Assembly: GCF_900182835.1 (NCBI RefSeq)
Contig: NZ_FXUB01000001.1
Coordinates: 434,001 to 498,000 of the forward strand
Reading direction: 5' to 3'
DNA length: 64,000 nucleotides
Origin: Desulfurobacterium pacificum
Lineage (GTDB): Bacteria; Aquificota; Aquificia; Desulfurobacteriales; Desulfurobacteriaceae
A program made the position numbers and the translations under genes. Positions 56,539 through 64,000 of the stretch are shown here, in pieces; the first letter of the stretch is position 1; each line of letters begins with the position of its first letter. The notes below the pieces were generated by a model. It had not been told where the DNA came from and searched no databases. It worked only from the letters and a program-made list of their open reading frames with translations.

Positions 56539-57667
56539 ATGCTTGAAAAAATCCACCCCCTCAAACAATCCCTCTCAACCCTTAAAGACCGCTACAACGA
56601 AATCAGGGGGTATTTTTGACGTTGAAGGAATGAAAAACCGCCTCAAAGAAATAGAAGAAGAAATGTCCTCTTCTGACTTCTGGAACGACCAGAAAAAAGC
56701 CCAATCAATTTCGCAGGAAAGAAACAGAATAGAACAGGAACTATCGCAAATTTCTGAACTTGAAAGAAAATTGGAAGACGCTGAAGTCCTTTTAGAGATG
56801 GCTGAAGAAGAGCCTGACGATAACTCTTTAGTAGAAGAAGCCGAAAACCTTTTATCTTCCGTTGAAAAATCCCTTGACAAATTAGAAATAAAAACTGTCC
56901 TTTCAGGTGAGTTTGATAAAAACAACGCAATCGTCACAATCCACGCAGGTGCTGGCGGAACGGAAAGCTGCGACTGGGCAGAAATGCTTATGAGAATGTA
57001 TCTGCGCTGGGCAGAAAGAAAAGGCTTTGAAACAGAAATCCTTGACTATCAGGAAAACGAAGAAGCCGGTATAAAAAGTGCAACAATTTTAGTTAAAGGA
57101 CCTTACGCCTACGGATTATTGCGAGCAGAACACGGCACTCACAGGCTTGTAAGAATTTCACCTTTTGACTCAAACGCCAGACGCCACACTTCCTTCTGCG
57201 GCGTAATAGTTGTCCCGGAAATAGAAGATGAAATAGACATAGAAATAAAAGACGAAGACATAAGAGTTGATACATACAGAGCTTCCGGTGCTGGCGGTCA
57301 GCACGTTAACAAAACCGATTCAGCAGTAAGAATAACCCACATACCCACCGGAATAGTGGTAACCTGCCAGAGCGAAAGGTCTCAAATACAAAACAGACAG
57401 CGCGCAATGAAAATCCTAAAGGCACGCCTCTACGAGCTTGAAATGAGAAAGAGAGAGGAAAAAATCGCCCAGGCAAGAGGAGAGCACAAAACGATAGCCT
57501 GGGGCAACCAGATAAGGTCCTACGTCTTTCACCCATACCAGATGGTAAAGGACCACAGAACCGGCGTTGAAACATCAAACGTAAACGCCGTAATGGACGG
57601 CGATATAGACTTATTTATAGAAAGTTACCTCAAGCAGAAGGCACTTCAGAAAAACGCCAGCTCTTAA
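56539..57667 (+). CDS. prfB: peptide chain release factor 2, with programmed +1 frameshift
   Basis: Translation starts at ATG 56539 (GGAGG SD) and reads 26 codons to an in-frame TGA at 56617-56619. The sequence AGGGGGTATTTTTGAC (56605-56620) has the classical RF2 layout: an SD-like stimulator, a TTT slip codon, then TGA-C. After a +1 shift the frame runs from GAC 56618 to the end, giving about 375 aa. The main part has the stop-codon-recognition tripeptide SPF (ISPFDSNARRH) and the catalytic GGQ (GAGGQHVNKTDSAVR). RF2 releases peptides at UGA and UAA and controls its own level by this shift. Confidence 0.96.
57654..57667 (+). repeat. 14-bp direct repeat, left copy
   Basis: ACGCCAGCTCTTAA is the last 14 bases of prfB including its stop. 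An identical copy at 58362-58375 ends vapC. The pair brackets the vapBC cassette. Confidence 0.85.
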
Positions 57668-57734
57668 ATACGTTGCTTTTTTTCCATCAGGTATTACTTT
57701 ATAAACTAAGTAAGGCAATTAAAAGAGGTAAGGT

Positions 57735-57971
57735 ATGCCTATCGCAAAAATCACATCTAAAGGACGGATTACAATACCCGCTGCTTTCAGGAAACGCCTG
57801 AAAAGCAATCTTGTTTCCGTTGAAATGGAAGGGGACAAAATAGTCATAAGACCAGTTTCAGGAATTGGAGGAATATTTAAAAAGTTCGCATTCAAAGATA
57901 AAACGCCCGAAGAAATAATGGAAATTGAAGAAAAAGCCATTGAGGAGGCTTTCTGCCAGAAATGGAAGTAG
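57735..57971 (+). CDS. vapB: AbrB/MazE-type antitoxin (VapB)
   Basis: This 78-aa protein has the SpoVT-AbrB swapped-hairpin motif ITSKGRITIPAAFRKRL at the N-terminus and a toxin-binding acidic helix at the C-terminus (TPEEIMEIEEKAIEEAF). It binds its own promoter and neutralises the PIN toxin. It has an AGAGG SD and overlaps vapC by 10 nt. Confidence 0.87.
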   Translation: MPIAKITSKGRITIPAAFRKRLKSNLVSVEMEGDKIVIRPVSGIGGIFKKFAFKDKTPEEIMEIEEKAIEEAFCQKWK

Positions 57972-58375
57972 TAGATACAAACGTAATAATTCGTTACCTT
58001 ATGGCAGATATTGAAGAGCTTTACCTGCAGGCAGAAAAGATATTTACCGAAGCCATAAAAGGACAACGAAAACTTTTTATCCCTCAATCCGTTATCGCAG
58101 AGGTAATTTTCGTTCTTTCAAAGGTCTATAAAATCCCTCGTAAAGAAATTGTTTCAGCGATTAAATTCTTTCTGGGAATCAAGAGCTGCAAAGTCCAGGA
58201 TAACAAAATTGTAGAAGTCGCCTTAAGTATCTACGAAAAAACAAATTTGAGTTTTGTAGATTCTTTCATCTGTGCATACGCCAGGTTAAACAGGTCTAAA
58301 CTAATAACCTTTGACGTCAAACTTAAAAACAAATGTGAAAAAATTACCTTGCATAACTCAGACGCCAGCTCTTAA
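57962..58375 (+). CDS. vapC: PIN-domain ribonuclease toxin (VapC)
   Basis: This 137-aa PIN nuclease has the metal-binding acids in order: D5 in VVDTNVIIR, Glu in IAEVIFVL near 47, Asp in SFVDSFICAYA near 99, and Asp in ITFDVKL near 116. VapC toxins cut tRNA or rRNA. Its last 14 bases repeat the end of prfB, and its 3' end overlaps the convergent atpD by 32 nt. Confidence 0.88.
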   Translation: MEVVDTNVIIRYLMADIEELYLQAEKIFTEAIKGQRKLFIPQSVIAEVIFVLSKVYKIPRKEIVSAIKFFLGIKSCKVQDNKIVEVALSIYEKTNLSFVDSFICAYARLNRSKLITFDVKLKNKCEKITLHNSDASS

Positions 58376-58940
58376 GAAGGGCAATTGCGTTCCTTTCGCT
58401 CTCTTCCAATTCTTCCTCTATCTTCTTTGCCTTTTCTCTATAATCAGGCAGGTAAAAGTTCTCTATTGCGTTAATCCTTACAGTAGTCTTCTTTATCTCC
58501 TCCGCCAGCCTCCAGCCCTTCATTTCAAGTTCCGCAATTTCCAGAATTAATTCAACAACCTCTCTAAAAATCCTCTCCGAGAGTTTAGAAAAAATCCCCT
58601 CTCCCCTCTCCACCACAACCTCTTTCTCAAACTCAAAAGAAACTTTAGGCACAACTACTCCAGCAAAAACCTGCTCTGCCACGCTCAAAACTATCTTTCC
58701 CCCGCCAGAACTTTCCTTTAAAAGCCTTCCCTCACCCACTTCCATAATCGCTTTTGAAAGCGTTTTATAACCTTCAAGCACTTTGGCATTCAGTCTTTTC
58801 CTCTTTTCTTCTATCTCATCAACAATAGCCATAACCTCTTTAAGCAGTATGTTCCTCTTTTCCTCAAAAATCGCCTTTCCATCTTCTAAAAACTTTATCT
58901 CCTCTTTAAGTTTTAAAAGCTCCGTCCTGCTCTTTATCAT
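58344..58940 (-). CDS. atpD: V/A-type ATP synthase subunit D
   Basis: This 198-aa coiled-coil stalk protein has a long N-terminal helix (LLKLKEEIKFLEDGKAIFEEKRNILLKEV) and a C-terminal helix (AEEIKKTTVRINAIENFYLPDYREKAKKIEEELEE), the subunit D layout. It forms the central rotor shaft inside the A3B3 head. It overlaps atpB by 4 nt. The last residues, KSWRLSYAR, are encoded across the 14-bp repeat, so its C-terminus was probably altered by the vapBC insertion. Confidence 0.88.
   Translation of the reverse strand: MIKSRTELLKLKEEIKFLEDGKAIFEEKRNILLKEVMAIVDEIEEKRKRLNAKVLEGYKTLSKAIMEVGEGRLLKESSGGGKIVLSVAEQVFAGVVVPKVSFEFEKEVVVERGEGIFSKLSERIFREVVELILEIAELEMKGWRLAEEIKKTTVRINAIENFYLPDYREKAKKIEEELEESERNAIALLKSWRLSYAR
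58362..58375 (+). repeat. 14-bp direct repeat, right copy
   Basis: This copy is identical to 57654-57667 and forms the last codons and stop of vapC. On the minus strand it encodes KSWR near the end of atpD. Confidence 0.85.
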
Positions 58941-60256
58941 CTTCCTAACCTTTTCAGGTCTTCCTCTTTAAGTTGAGTAAGCTCTTTTTCAGGTAAAAGA
59001 GAGAGAACCCTCAAGCCAACGGCAAACGTATCCTCAAGGGTTCTCTTTTCTCCCTCCTCCTGACCTATAAATTCTTTTAAAAACCTTCTGCCAAACTCAA
59101 GATACTTCCGTTCAACTTCTCCAAGCTCACTCTCACCTATGATAGATGCAAGTTTTTCAACAGTTTTAAACTTAGCGTAAGCTGAATAAAGCTGAGATGC
59201 AAACCTTCTGTGAAAAGGCTCTATCGCATCGTTCATTAACCTTGAAAGAGACGGCAAAACGTCAATCGGCGGCTTTATACCCTGCTGATAGAGTTTTCTG
59301 TCTAAAACTATCTGCCCCTCTGTTATGTAACCGGTTAAGTCTGGAATAGGATGGGTAATATCATCGTCAGGCATCGTAAGAACAGGAATCATCGTAAGAG
59401 AACCCTTTTTACCCTTTATCAATCCAGCACGCTCATAGATAGAAGCGAGGTCGCTATACATGTAGGCAGGATACCCCTTCCTGCCTGGTATCTCTTCCCT
59501 TTTTGAAGAAATCTGCCTTAAAGAGTCGCAGTAGTTTGTCATATCAAAAAGAACGGTAACAACGTCCAAACCCTTTTCAAAGGCGAAAAACTCTGCCACC
59601 GTCAAAGCCGTTCTTGGTAGAAGAACCTGAGCAGCTGGAGGGTCTGAAGCTCTTGCAACGAAAACTATCGTATTGCCGACAATTCTTTTTATAAGATAAT
59701 CAACAATCTCATTTTTAAGTCCAATAACGCCTAAAACGGTAAGCGTTTCTTCCGTTTGAATCTGATTAACCAGACTGATAACCAAATCTTCCGTCTCAAC
59801 GCCAGAGACAGAAAAAATCGGTAGCTTCTGTCCCTTTACCAGCACGTTTAAACCGTCTATCGCAGAAAAGCCTGTAACGATAGGCTCTTTTGGGAAATCT
59901 CTGAAAAACGGATTTATAGGTTTTCCGTAAACTTCAACTTCTTTACCAATCGGTTTTTTACCGGTTGTCAGCTCTTCACCGTAAGCGTTAAACCTTTTGC
60001 CTACCATCTCTTCAGAAACTGAAACGGTAAACATCTCACCGGTAAACCTGACAAGCACATCCCTTGATATTTCAGAAGAATCCCCCAAAACTTCTATCAA
60101 CGCCACCTTTTCGTTAATTTCTATTATCCTGCCCGGAACTTCCCTGTCTTTCCACTTCACGAAAACTTTTTCTCCAAACATAGGCTCAACTGCATCACTC
60201 TTAAAAAAGAGAAGCTGCTCCTTTAAAGACTCAACGCCTTTGTAATATTCTTTCAC
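58937..60256 (-). CDS. atpB: V/A-type ATP synthase subunit B (regulatory)
   Basis: This 439-aa non-catalytic head subunit has GFSAIDGLNVLVKGQKLPIFSVSG near residue 130, where the catalytic P-loop is replaced. It also has SDLASIYERAGLIKGKKGSLTMIPVLTMPDDDITHPIPDLTGYITEGQIVLDR near 263-315. Length and motifs are typical. It overlaps atpA by 4 nt. Confidence 0.95.
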   Translation of the reverse strand: MKEYYKGVESLKEQLLFFKSDAVEPMFGEKVFVKWKDREVPGRIIEINEKVALIEVLGDSSEISRDVLVRFTGEMFTVSVSEEMVGKRFNAYGEELTTGKKPIGKEVEVYGKPINPFFRDFPKEPIVTGFSAIDGLNVLVKGQKLPIFSVSGVETEDLVISLVNQIQTEETLTVLGVIGLKNEIVDYLIKRIVGNTIVFVARASDPPAAQVLLPRTALTVAEFFAFEKGLDVVTVLFDMTNYCDSLRQISSKREEIPGRKGYPAYMYSDLASIYERAGLIKGKKGSLTMIPVLTMPDDDITHPIPDLTGYITEGQIVLDRKLYQQGIKPPIDVLPSLSRLMNDAIEPFHRRFASQLYSAYAKFKTVEKLASIIGESELGEVERKYLEFGRRFLKEFIGQEEGEKRTLEDTFAVGLRVLSLLPEKELTQLKEEDLKRLGR

Positions 60257-61959
60257 CTCAAAAACTCCCCATAAACTTCTTCTATCTTTTTCTTCAACTC
60301 TTCTAACTTCTCCAGCTCATCCTCGCTCACTTCCATCTTCATTTTTAGAACCTCTGAAACAATCGGCTGTGAAACTATTCTGTCAACGGGAACACCTCTT
60401 TCCTCAAAAACCTTACGCCACCACTCAGAAAGAGTTTTTAAAACTTCAGCCATGAAAATCTGCTTTTTAGGGGAAGAGTAGCAGTCAACGGGGTCAAAAG
60501 CGTTCTGTCTCAAAAACGCTTCTCTGATAACGTTGAACTCTTCATACTTTAACTTCTGGTCTTCCGGCAGCGACTCCCTTCCTAAAAGTCTCACTAACTT
60601 TTCAAGCCTTTCACCTTCCTGAAGCGTTTCAACCATCCACCTTCTTAAAGCCCCGTAATCACCGAACCGATTCCACCAGTCTTTAACAAACTCAGCATAC
60701 CTACTGTAACTGTTGAAAGGATTAATAGCCGGGTAAAACCTCGCACTCGCTAATTCTCTGTCAAGCGCCCAAAACGTTCCCGTAAATCGCTTCGTGTGCC
60801 TTGTAACCGGTTCAGAAAAATCCCCACCCGGCGGCGAAACAGCTCCTATTATCGTTATGCTTCCATTCCCATCAGCAGTTTTAAAAGCGCCGGCACGCTC
60901 GTAGATAGAAGCTATCTTTGAAGAGAGAGAAGCGGGGAATCCCTCCTCTATCGGAAGCTCTCCCATCCTCCCGGAAATCTCCCTCATGGCTTCAGCCCAC
61001 CTTGACGTTGAATCTGCCATAACGGCAACCGAGTAACCCATATCCTTAAAGTATTCGGCTATCGTTATTCCAAGGTAGATTGAAGATTCCCTTGCAGAAA
61101 CGGGCATGTCTGAGGTGTTGGCTATCAAAACCGTTCTGTTCATCAGAGGTTTTCCCGTATAAGGGTCTTTAAGCTTTGGAAATTCCTTCAAAATCTCTGT
61201 CATTTCGTTTCCCCTTTCACCGCAGCCTATATAGACAATCACATCGGCGTTGCACCACTTTGCAAGAGTTTGCTGAAGAACCGTTTTGCCTGTTCCAAAA
61301 CCGCCAGGAATAGAAGCTGCACCGCCCTTAGCTACCGGAAACAGAAAATCCACGATTCTCTGACCGGTAAAAAGAGGCTCGCTTACCTCTACCCTTTTAC
61401 CGAAGCGAGAAGGTATCCTTACAGCCCTTTCCTCAAATATAAAGACATCGGTTTCTCCCACCTTTACTACCGGTTCTTCAGCAGAAACCTTCCCCTCTTT
61501 TACCCTCGCTACCGTTCCGTCAACAGGTGAAAGTATCTTATACTTAAAACCTTTAAACTCAACAAATCCAACCAGCTGACCTGCATTTACTTCATCTCCA
61601 ACTTTTACCTGCGGCACAAACTCAAATTCCCCTTCCGGAAAGAACTTCTTTCCTCTTCCCCTTTCAATCCTCTCACCAGAAGAAGAAAGAACCCTGCCCA
61701 AGCCGTCTAAAATCATTCCTAAAATGCCGGGGGCAAGCGTTACAGAAAGCATTCTGCCGGTAAAGAAAACTCTTTCACCAACTTTCAAACCTTCCGTCCT
61801 TTCGTAAACCTGAACGACAGCTCTATCTTTAGTTATTGAAACAACTTCACCCATCAGCTTTAAACCGCCAACCTGCGCAACTTCAAAGAGAAAAGGCTTT
61901 TCTCCCTCCTCTACAGCAACTTCAACCACAGGACCAGAAACTCTTACAACCCTCCCCAA
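60253..61959 (-). CDS. atpA: V/A-type ATP synthase subunit A (catalytic)
   Basis: This 568-aa catalytic head subunit has Walker A GGFGTGKTVLQ near residue 221, the A-subunit-specific non-homologous insert (about 110-180, ILSPVDGTVARVKEG), and Walker B VAVMADSTSRWAEA near 313. SPPGGDFSEPVTRHT near 375 is also conserved. It couples ATP hydrolysis or synthesis to ion flow. It lies 1 nt after atpE. Confidence 0.96.
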   Translation of the reverse strand: MGRVVRVSGPVVEVAVEEGEKPFLFEVAQVGGLKLMGEVVSITKDRAVVQVYERTEGLKVGERVFFTGRMLSVTLAPGILGMILDGLGRVLSSSGERIERGRGKKFFPEGEFEFVPQVKVGDEVNAGQLVGFVEFKGFKYKILSPVDGTVARVKEGKVSAEEPVVKVGETDVFIFEERAVRIPSRFGKRVEVSEPLFTGQRIVDFLFPVAKGGAASIPGGFGTGKTVLQQTLAKWCNADVIVYIGCGERGNEMTEILKEFPKLKDPYTGKPLMNRTVLIANTSDMPVSARESSIYLGITIAEYFKDMGYSVAVMADSTSRWAEAMREISGRMGELPIEEGFPASLSSKIASIYERAGAFKTADGNGSITIIGAVSPPGGDFSEPVTRHTKRFTGTFWALDRELASARFYPAINPFNSYSRYAEFVKDWWNRFGDYGALRRWMVETLQEGERLEKLVRLLGRESLPEDQKLKYEEFNVIREAFLRQNAFDPVDCYSSPKKQIFMAEVLKTLSEWWRKVFEERGVPVDRIVSQPIVSEVLKMKMEVSEDELEKLEELKKKIEEVYGEFLR

Positions 61960-61960
61960 G

Positions 61961-62488
61961 TTAAACCTCTCTTAAAAGCTTTTGAACTTCCGCTTCTACC
62001 ACTTCCATTAACTCACTCTCATCAAAAAGAACCGCTACGTTTTCTCCCTCAAACTTGAACAGAACGCCCTTTTCGTCTGTGCATTCAAGGTCAGGAAAAT
62101 TGCCCTTCAACCTGCAACTAACCAAAAACCTTCCCGTTTTATGCTTTTCTAAAACGCGCTTTTTAAAACACTCAAAGAGATAGATAAAATCCAGCTTCTC
62201 TAAAACCTGAAGGAAGACCAATTCTTTAAAATTTTCAATAGTTTCGTTTACTCTCCTTTCAAAAGCGGTTTCAATTTCTTTTCTCTTTGCAGAAAACTCT
62301 TCTTCCAACTGCTTCAGCGCTGCATTTAACCTCTCTTCTTTAATCTTTTCTGCTTCTTTACGCGCATTTTCTTCTATTTCTTTAGCTCTTCTCTCTGCTT
62401 CTTCTAAAATGGCAATACTTTTCTTTTTGGTAGTTTTTATCACCTCTTTTCTGAACTCCTCAAAGTTACCCGATTCCCAGAACTCCAT
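61961..62488 (-). CDS. atpE: V/A-type ATP synthase subunit E (peripheral stalk)
   Basis: This 175-aa protein has a highly charged N-terminal coiled coil (about 15-90, rich in Glu, Lys and Ala) and a globular C-terminus (CRLKGNFPDLECTDEKGVLFKFEGENVAVLF). That is the layout of stalk subunit E. Sequence is weakly conserved in this family, so position between F and A supports the call. It overlaps atpF by 23 nt. Confidence 0.82.
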   Translation of the reverse strand: MEFWESGNFEEFRKEVIKTTKKKSIAILEEAERRAKEIEENARKEAEKIKEERLNAALKQLEEEFSAKRKEIETAFERRVNETIENFKELVFLQVLEKLDFIYLFECFKKRVLEKHKTGRFLVSCRLKGNFPDLECTDEKGVLFKFEGENVAVLFDESELMEVVEAEVQKLLREV

Positions 62489-62762
62489 ACAGGAACTCCT
62501 TTAAATCCCTTTTGAGATGAATGCCGTCAAAAGAAGGGACGAAAACAACTACCGGTTTTGCCTTTCTCTTTAATTTTTCGGAAAAGGGAAGGAACGTTTT
62601 GTAATACCTGTCAGGAATAACCAATATTCCAACGTCCTCATCGTGAATAAGCTGGTCAACTTTCGCTTTAAACTCTTCTTTGCCGTTTACGATAACTGCT
62701 TCTGCGCCCCCCAGCCTGAAGCCGGCACATTCTCTTTCATTGCCGATAAAAACGATTCTCAT
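62466..62762 (-). CDS. atpF: V/A-type ATP synthase subunit F
   Basis: This 98-aa Rossmann-like protein has the subunit F pattern: RIVFIGNERECAGFRLGGAEAVIV at the start, a central DVGILVIPDRYYKTF, and VVVFVPS near 72. It binds the central shaft. It overlaps atpK by 4 nt and atpE by 23 nt. Confidence 0.85.
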   Translation of the reverse strand: MRIVFIGNERECAGFRLGGAEAVIVNGKEEFKAKVDQLIHDEDVGILVIPDRYYKTFLPFSEKLKRKAKPVVVFVPSFDGIHLKRDLKEFLYGVLGIG

Positions 62763-63031
62763 AGCTTACCTAAAATAAGGATTGCAACGATAAGACCGTA
62801 AATAGCAATACCTTCAGCAAGCCCCAAAAAGATTAAAGCTCTTCCCGACATCTCCGGCTTTTCGCCCATCGTCCCCATTGCAGCAGAACCTACAAGCCCA
62901 ACTGCAACGCCGGCAGCAACGGTGGAAAGCCCAACAGAAACTGCTGCAGCCATGTAACCCCACGCCTTATCCCCCGCAAAAGCAACGGCAGGAAACAGCA
63001 GGAAGAAAAGAAACCTTAAAGCAGTTTTCAT
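62759..63031 (-). CDS. atpK: V/A-type ATP synthase subunit K (c ring)
   Basis: This 90-aa proteolipid has two ring helices, with the ion-binding Glu in LGLAEGIAIYGLIV near residue 73. The N-terminus (about 1-19, ending PAVAFA before GDK) looks like a cleavable signal peptide, unusual for this subunit. The first ring helix lacks the Gln typical of Na+ sites, so proton coupling is more likely; this is inference. Confidence 0.9.
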   Translation of the reverse strand: MKTALRFLFFLLFPAVAFAGDKAWGYMAAAVSVGLSTVAAGVAVGLVGSAAMGTMGEKPEMSGRALIFLGLAEGIAIYGLIVAILILGKL

Positions 63032-63062
63032 AACGTTCCCCCGCAGAATATTGATTAATCCG

Positions 63063-63413
63063 TTACTTATCTTCCGTGCTACTTAAAATGTGTAAAATTT
63101 CCTTTCTTAACGAAGGAATTGATTCCTTAACTACTTTCCAAACAAGCTCATAATCAATTCCAAAATATTCATGAATAAGTATATCTCTCATTCCAGCGAT
63201 ATTTTTCCAGGGAATATGGGAATAGCTATATTTAAATTCTGCTGGCAGATTTTTAACGGCTTCTCCAATAATTTCTAAACTCCTTACAAAGGCTCTCTGA
63301 AAAACTGGGTTATTTGAAAACTCCTCATAATTTAAAGTGCGTGAATTTTCAATTAGAAAGTTGCATTCCTGCAGAATATGGTGCAGAAAAACCTTGTAAC
63401 TTTTTTTCTTCAT
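63063..63413 (-). CDS. hepT: HepT-like HEPN (DUF86) ribonuclease toxin (module 3)
   Basis: This 116-aa DUF86 protein has RDILIHEYFG near residue 78, matching R-x4-H-x-Y, and the IGEAVKNLP segment typical of the family. It shares one base with the nucleotidyltransferase gene upstream and lies 31 nt before atpK. It belongs to a different lineage from modules 1 and 2. Confidence 0.87.
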   Translation of the reverse strand: MKKKSYKVFLHHILQECNFLIENSRTLNYEEFSNNPVFQRAFVRSLEIIGEAVKNLPAEFKYSYSHIPWKNIAGMRDILIHEYFGIDYELVWKVVKESIPSLRKEILHILSSTEDK

Positions 63414-63760
63414 TAAAAAACCTCAAACTCCTGAATGTAAGGTTTAACAAAAGGACTTATCCCTCTATCTGTCACTAAATCTACTGAAAGCCCGGTAATC
63501 TCTTCTAAGTAATGCTTGAGTTCTACAAAACCGAGTAAATCTATCCTGCCATCAAGAAAAACGATTACATCTAAGTCACTATCCCTTTTTTGTTCGTTTC
63601 TGGCAAAAGAACCAAAAATTTTCAAATGCTTAACCCCGTATCTCTGGTATAGCTCTTCACGATGTTTTAAGAGAACTTCAACTATTTCCGATAGACTTTT
63701 AGGTTTCTTACGCGCAGTTCTTTTAAGGATTTTCACCTGTTCTCCATGATTATGTTCCAT
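63413..63760 (-). CDS. mntA: MntA-like nucleotidyltransferase antitoxin (module 3)
   Basis: This 115-aa protein has KIFGSFARNEQKRDSDLDV (GS at 50-51, D62-L-D64), the minimal nucleotidyltransferase signature, and a later SVDLV acidic site. A GTG eight codons in, with GGAG ahead, is an alternative start. It lies 13 nt after the atpI stop, inside the ATPase operon. Confidence 0.86.
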   Translation of the reverse strand: MEHNHGEQVKILKRTARKKPKSLSEIVEVLLKHREELYQRYGVKHLKIFGSFARNEQKRDSDLDVIVFLDGRIDLLGFVELKHYLEEITGLSVDLVTDRGISPFVKPYIQEFEVF

Positions 63761-63773
63761 TTAAAAATTATAA

Positions 63774-64000
63774 CTATTCAACTTCCAGTCTAAACGGTTT
63801 GAACGGTCTTCCTCCACCCCTGTAAAACTTCTTAAAGAACTCGTAATAGTTGAGCCTTAACGCCTGTATCGTAACTATTAAACCTTCTAAAGCAACGACA
63901 AACAGGTTACCCAATACCACTATTAACCAGTATATCAGAGTTCCTCCTTTAAGAGCCCTGACAGATTCTGCAACGGTAAAAACGGCAAAAAACAGAGCGC
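63774..64000 (-). CDS. atpI: V/A-type ATP synthase subunit I, C-terminal part
   Basis: The minus strand from the window edge to TAG at 63774-63776 encodes about 74 residues. It contains LIYWLIVVLGNLFVVALEG, then LIVTIQALRLNYYEFFKKF and GGGRPFKPF before the stop. That is the strongly conserved C-terminus of the membrane stator subunit I, which carries the ion path. The rest lies outside the window. It is the most upstream gene of the ATPase operon seen here. Confidence 0.9.
   Translation of the reverse strand, partial: ALFFAVFTVAESVRALKGGTLIYWLIVVLGNLFVVALEGLIVTIQALRLNYYEFFKKFYRGGGRPFKPFRLEVE

Follow-up and report, generated by a model that had tools for sequence, protein, structure and literature searches.

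Chromosomal toxin–antitoxin (TA) pairs have been described as insertions between conserved genes, among them ccd at the folA-apaH junction and further systems in the relA-mazG and dinB-yafP intervals, and the mechanism by which such pairs integrate has been called unelucidated (PMC7167474). Restriction-modification units are described in PMC3874152, which cites Nobusato et al. 2000 and Furuta et al. 2010, as inserting with duplication of their target; the duplications are either long, at about 100 bp, or short and accompanied by imperfect inverted repeats at the termini. The locus considered here is a vapBC pair lying between prfB, for release factor 2, and a V-type ATPase gene in a 64,000-nt stretch of the Desulfurobacterium pacificum genome, which we call the window. 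The host, a member of the Desulfurobacteriaceae, is heat-loving.

Like the insertions of the ccd/folA-apaH type, this is a lone TA pair between housekeeping genes, with relatives that lack the TA pair; unlike them, it shows a duplication footprint, and does so at convergent gene ends. It shares with restriction-modification units the character of a selfish toxin/antidote-like unit with no known mobile carrier, bracketed by an apparent target duplication, and differs from those described in PMC3874152 in that the repeat is 14 bp long, terminal inverted repeats are lacking, and the empty ancestor is one that we infer. The direct target repeat is a property held in common with transposable elements that duplicate their target sites, whereas their terminal inverted repeats, transposase, and same-ended copies are missing, as are the integrase or recombinase and the reused attachment site of site-specific integrative elements. 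In gene order, gene overlap, domains, and the four acidic PIN residues, the pair matches type II VapBC modules, from which it departs in an extra C-terminal VapC tail that ends in apparently target-derived codons. The module itself is an ordinary type II VapBC, and its value is its footprint. The repeat around it probably records the way TA pairs move, and a footprint this clean, with a toxin stop codon supplied by the target, bears on how such pairs enter chromosomes. It also offers a concrete signature for genome-wide searches, namely stop-anchored direct repeats around TA cassettes together with abnormal toxin tails.

The vapBC cassette and its bracketing repeat

The antitoxin gene lies upstream of the toxin gene, with an overlap of 10 nt (Table 1). 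By family, VapC would be an ordinary PIN-domain RNase toxin, in which alignments place all four acidic residues (D5, E47, D100, and D118), and VapB a MazE/AbrB-like antitoxin and autorepressor. An AT-rich stretch upstream of vapB holds the palindrome TTACTT-N8-AAGTAA (57694–57699/57708–57713), a candidate operator for such autoregulation. GC content, at 0.45 for the 3′ portion of prfB, falls to between 0.36 and 0.375 across the cassette. Of 22 family genomes, 2 carry VapC; the copy outside the window is 54% identical, the same as for the closest homologue found, and sits on a small, unrelated 4-kb contig. No vapC was found in the genus mate G001 (a metagenome-assembled genome, JAMOPR01, 83% complete), plasmid records yielded only relatives below 60% identity, and AtpD and VapC searches of IMG/VR found nothing. 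Alignments with the closest homologues of VapC extend no further than about residues 125 to 129 of the 137-residue protein, and homologues end near residue 125 to 127. After a conserved Lys/Arg-Cys, most of them continue for 2 to 8 residues and the window VapC for 12, the last four codons of which, DASS, derive with the stop from the repeat. An extended tail that ends in the repeat fits an insertion in which vapC lost its original stop.

Table 1. Coordinates of the features discussed, in window numbering
Feature	Position	Strand	Remark	Basis
prfB (release factor 2)	56539–57667	+		sequence read; protein search
Left repeat copy	57654–57667	+	ends with prfB stop codon	sequence, genome scan
Leader of vapBC	57668–57734	+	left end of presumed insert	sequence, repeat scan
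vapB antitoxin	57735–57971	+	MazE/AbrB-type DNA-binding domain, 78 aa	PF04014 E 1.2e-8; TIGR01439
vapC toxin	57962–58375	+	PIN domain, 137 aa	PF01850 E 6.6e-16; alignments
Right repeat copy	58362–58375	+	ends with vapC stop; antisense to atpD end	sequence, genome scan
V-type ATPase subunit D gene (atpD)	58344–58940	-		PF01813 E 1.7e-34; alignments
HepT-like RNase gene	63063–63413	-		profile match below NCBIfam cut-offs
MntA-like nucleotidyltransferase gene	63413–63760	-		profile match below NCBIfam cut-offs

The first-pass annotation had reported a 14-mer that contains the prfB stop codon, is repeated at the ends of prfB and vapC, and encodes KSWR on the opposite strand near the end of atpD, and the sequence agrees on each point. 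Both copies of ACGCCAGCTCTTAA are identical, the left one ending on the stop of prfB and the right one on that of vapC; the minus strand of the right copy encodes (L)KSWR close to the atpD end. The copies are 708 bp apart with only vapB and vapC between them, and these are the only two exact occurrences in the 1.59-Mb genome; a version with one mismatch is found at one further site, antisense within another gene. A 14-bp repeat within a few kilobases is unremarkable alone, since the window contains 10 such pairs no more than 3 kb apart, some of them in the repeat array at its start, compared with 1.5 in simulations. What is rare is the position on both stop codons. The 1.6 Mb compared, from relatives and from other sources, holds 19,962 pairs of ORF ends on the same strand at a spacing of 250 to 2500 bp; among them, an exact 14-base match anchored on both stops occurs at one place (about 1 in 20,000), and just one more pair, matching over 9 + 5 bases, passed the threshold for reporting. 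When 22 further vapBC loci from the phylum were scanned for bracketing repeats, these were only 8 to 11 bp long, which is background; a 30-bp match at one of them, L086, is an artefact, because vapC there sits at the edge of the locus.

Outside the 14 bases, the outer flanks are not significantly alike. Alignments of these flanks looked by eye like a longer, decayed duplication, which we do not claim, as p varied with the scoring from 0.02 to 0.35, and a gapped upstream extension (TCAG-AAAA-ACGCC versus TCAG-ACGCC) was likewise not significant (p 0.28). A 12/14 match between TAAGTAAGGCAATT and TAAGAAGGGCAATT was set aside, as it overlaps the operator-like palindrome of vapB.

prfB and atpD in the window and in relatives

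The prfB product ends ...KQKALQKNASS-stop. Orthologues 77 to 85% identical were found by protein search in 19 other family genomes, and in these the conserved KQKA (or similar) is followed by 2 to 7 varied residues, never NASS. The start of the gene has an in-frame TGA (56617–56619) and a +1 frameshift site, which reads AGGGGGTATTTTTGAC (56606–56620) with TTT as the slip codon before the TGA; those prfB starts of relatives that were read likewise carry GGGGGTATTTTTGAC. In E. coli, the slip codon is CTT.

The gene called atpD here encodes the V-type ATPase subunit D (PF01813) and not the F-type beta subunit, and it is patchy across the family. It is convergent to vapC, with 3′ ends overlapping by 32 bp, and its product ends KSWRLSYAR. 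The closest relative, from G004, is 79% identical and ends LLKSWRLARKK, at the same length. It carries CTTAAGAGCTGGCG in the same codons, keeping 13 of the 14 repeat bases, in a gene more than 100 kb from prfB. Its retention so far from prfB marks the right copy as old, native atpD sequence. The prfB stop codon was then probably borrowed from atpD; if there was a single ancestral copy, that stop must have come from antisense atpD in a convergent 3′ overlap. A more distant atpD homologue, G041, ends LLKSIK about where KSWR stands, and distant homologues that can end near this point suggest that the residues past KSWR are probably free to vary.

As the first-pass annotation had predicted, joining the flanks gives ...ALLKSWRFSEVPSA-stop and an overlap of prfB and atpD at their 3′ ends; both genes stay open, with sensible ends. 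The empty-site atpD predicted in this way would end KSWRFSEVPSA, with Phe after KSWR, versus Leu in both the window and G004. The shared Leu argues weakly against the predicted ending, an agreement at one residue being expected by chance about 1 time in 10. No other family genome with a prfB-atpD junction was found, and V-ATPase genes were absent from all other family prfB neighbourhoods read. In G001, contig C259 ends inside prfB at about window position 56753 and contig C269 begins inside the V-ATPase alpha gene at about 61802, the interval between them being absent from the assembly. A search of genome contigs with AtpD found no further genus members, and one with the TrmJ-like neighbour gave as its only very close locus that same G001 contig ending inside prfB.

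Probable insertion with target duplication and its alternatives

The best explanation of this arrangement, unproven but in our judgment probable, is that vapBC was inserted at a tail-to-tail junction of prfB and atpD with duplication of 14 bp of target, much as the first-pass annotation had proposed. The rarity of vapBC across the family, the long VapC tail, the positions of the stops, and the native right copy in atpD speak for it. The Leu after KSWR speaks weakly against it, and so does, on the other side of the account, the lack of any duplication of 7 bp or more at the second toxin–antitoxin insertion in this genome. That annotation's other suggestion, site-specific capture, finds no support: the cassette has no recombinase, and the genome offers no second site with the 14-mer.

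On the insertion reading, a horizontally acquired vapBC cassette of about 694 bp would have entered the overlap of the prfB and atpD 3′ ends, where the fragment was taken up at a staggered break, or at a filled-in end equivalent to one, and fill-in left one 14-bp copy on either side. The left copy would leave prfB its stop and the right copy would carry atpD through KSWR, while vapC would lose its own stop and end on that of the target (DASS-stop), and the insert's end would give atpD five new C-terminal residues, LSYAR. With the 14 landing-site bases copied, neither prfB nor atpD seems badly damaged. A landing at convergent ends would carry almost no cost for the host, where addiction would then retain vapBC. 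The ancestral empty site and the joining chemistry are what we infer from this anatomy. The cassette encodes only vapBC, with no transposase or integrase; a repeat scan detected no terminal inverted repeats at its ends, and the genome has no further copies of these ends, so that no insertion agent was identified. A MITE-like family was rejected, since the genome carries the cassette only once. Most likely, either a vapBC fragment was captured at a staggered or resected break and the gaps were filled in, or some recombinase acted in trans. We advance only as a doubtful generalization that a bare TA pair moves as a minimal unit with neither transposase nor integrase, captured at staggered breaks in overlapping convergent gene ends, where the duplication would spare both genes and give the toxin its stop.

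The same sequence could have arisen the other way around, with vapBC already lying behind an atpD that ended RL..., in a natural convergent overlap of vapC and atpD, and with vapBC and the V-ATPase block later joined behind prfB by recombination or template-switch, copying 14 bp of the atpD end onto the tail of prfB. Such a rearrangement would account for the Leu common to G004 and the window and for a NASS tail of prfB seen in no relative, and it agrees with the different placement of the V-ATPase operon in G004, which makes the prfB-atpD neighbourhood itself probably a derived arrangement. However, it requires the joining event to have copied sequence lying 0.7 kb past the joint, it leaves unexplained why the extended tail of VapC ends in the same repeat, and no vapC lies behind the G004 atpD. 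On balance we think a rearrangement unlikely, while granting it a real chance.

Integration is common at the 3′ ends of genes, and a small circle or transforming fragment that integrated by crossover within a pre-existing 14-bp identity, through short homology or an att-like site, would yield the same final anatomy. The donor would then have needed 14 bp of atpD sequence, by chance or through earlier residence, and the missing recombinase and the single use of the 14-mer site in the genome also weigh against this route, which we judge improbable. That an unrelated repeat arose by coincidence at two gene ends is harder still to credit: although the window has a fair number of 14-bp repeats spaced within 3 kb, the anchoring on both stops is of the order of 1 in 20,000, and related vapBC loci have no comparable repeats.

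A possible second toxin–antitoxin pair in the V-ATPase operon

The V-ATPase operon, of patchy occurrence in the family, occupies 58344–64000 on the minus strand, running into L050/L051, and lies downstream of prfB in the window and elsewhere in G004. Between its presumed I and K subunit genes it is interrupted by a HepT-like and an MntA-like gene (Table 1), possibly a type VII TA pair related to the MntA-HepT family, to judge from profile matches. In G001 (C269) and G004 (C2) nothing separates the I and K genes, which abut or overlap, so that for this pair an empty site is seen. G004 has a similar pair elsewhere (C7). No direct repeat of at least 7 bp was found at the ends of the MntA-HepT-like insert. 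Taken with vapBC, it suggests that TA pairs have entered this operon twice, of which only the vapBC entry seems to have left a clear duplication. At the opposite end of the window, positions 1–180 contain tandem copies of GTCGCAATCCCTTCCACTTTTTAGGGCATTTCAACAG at intervals of about 77 bp, which look like the end of a CRISPR array.
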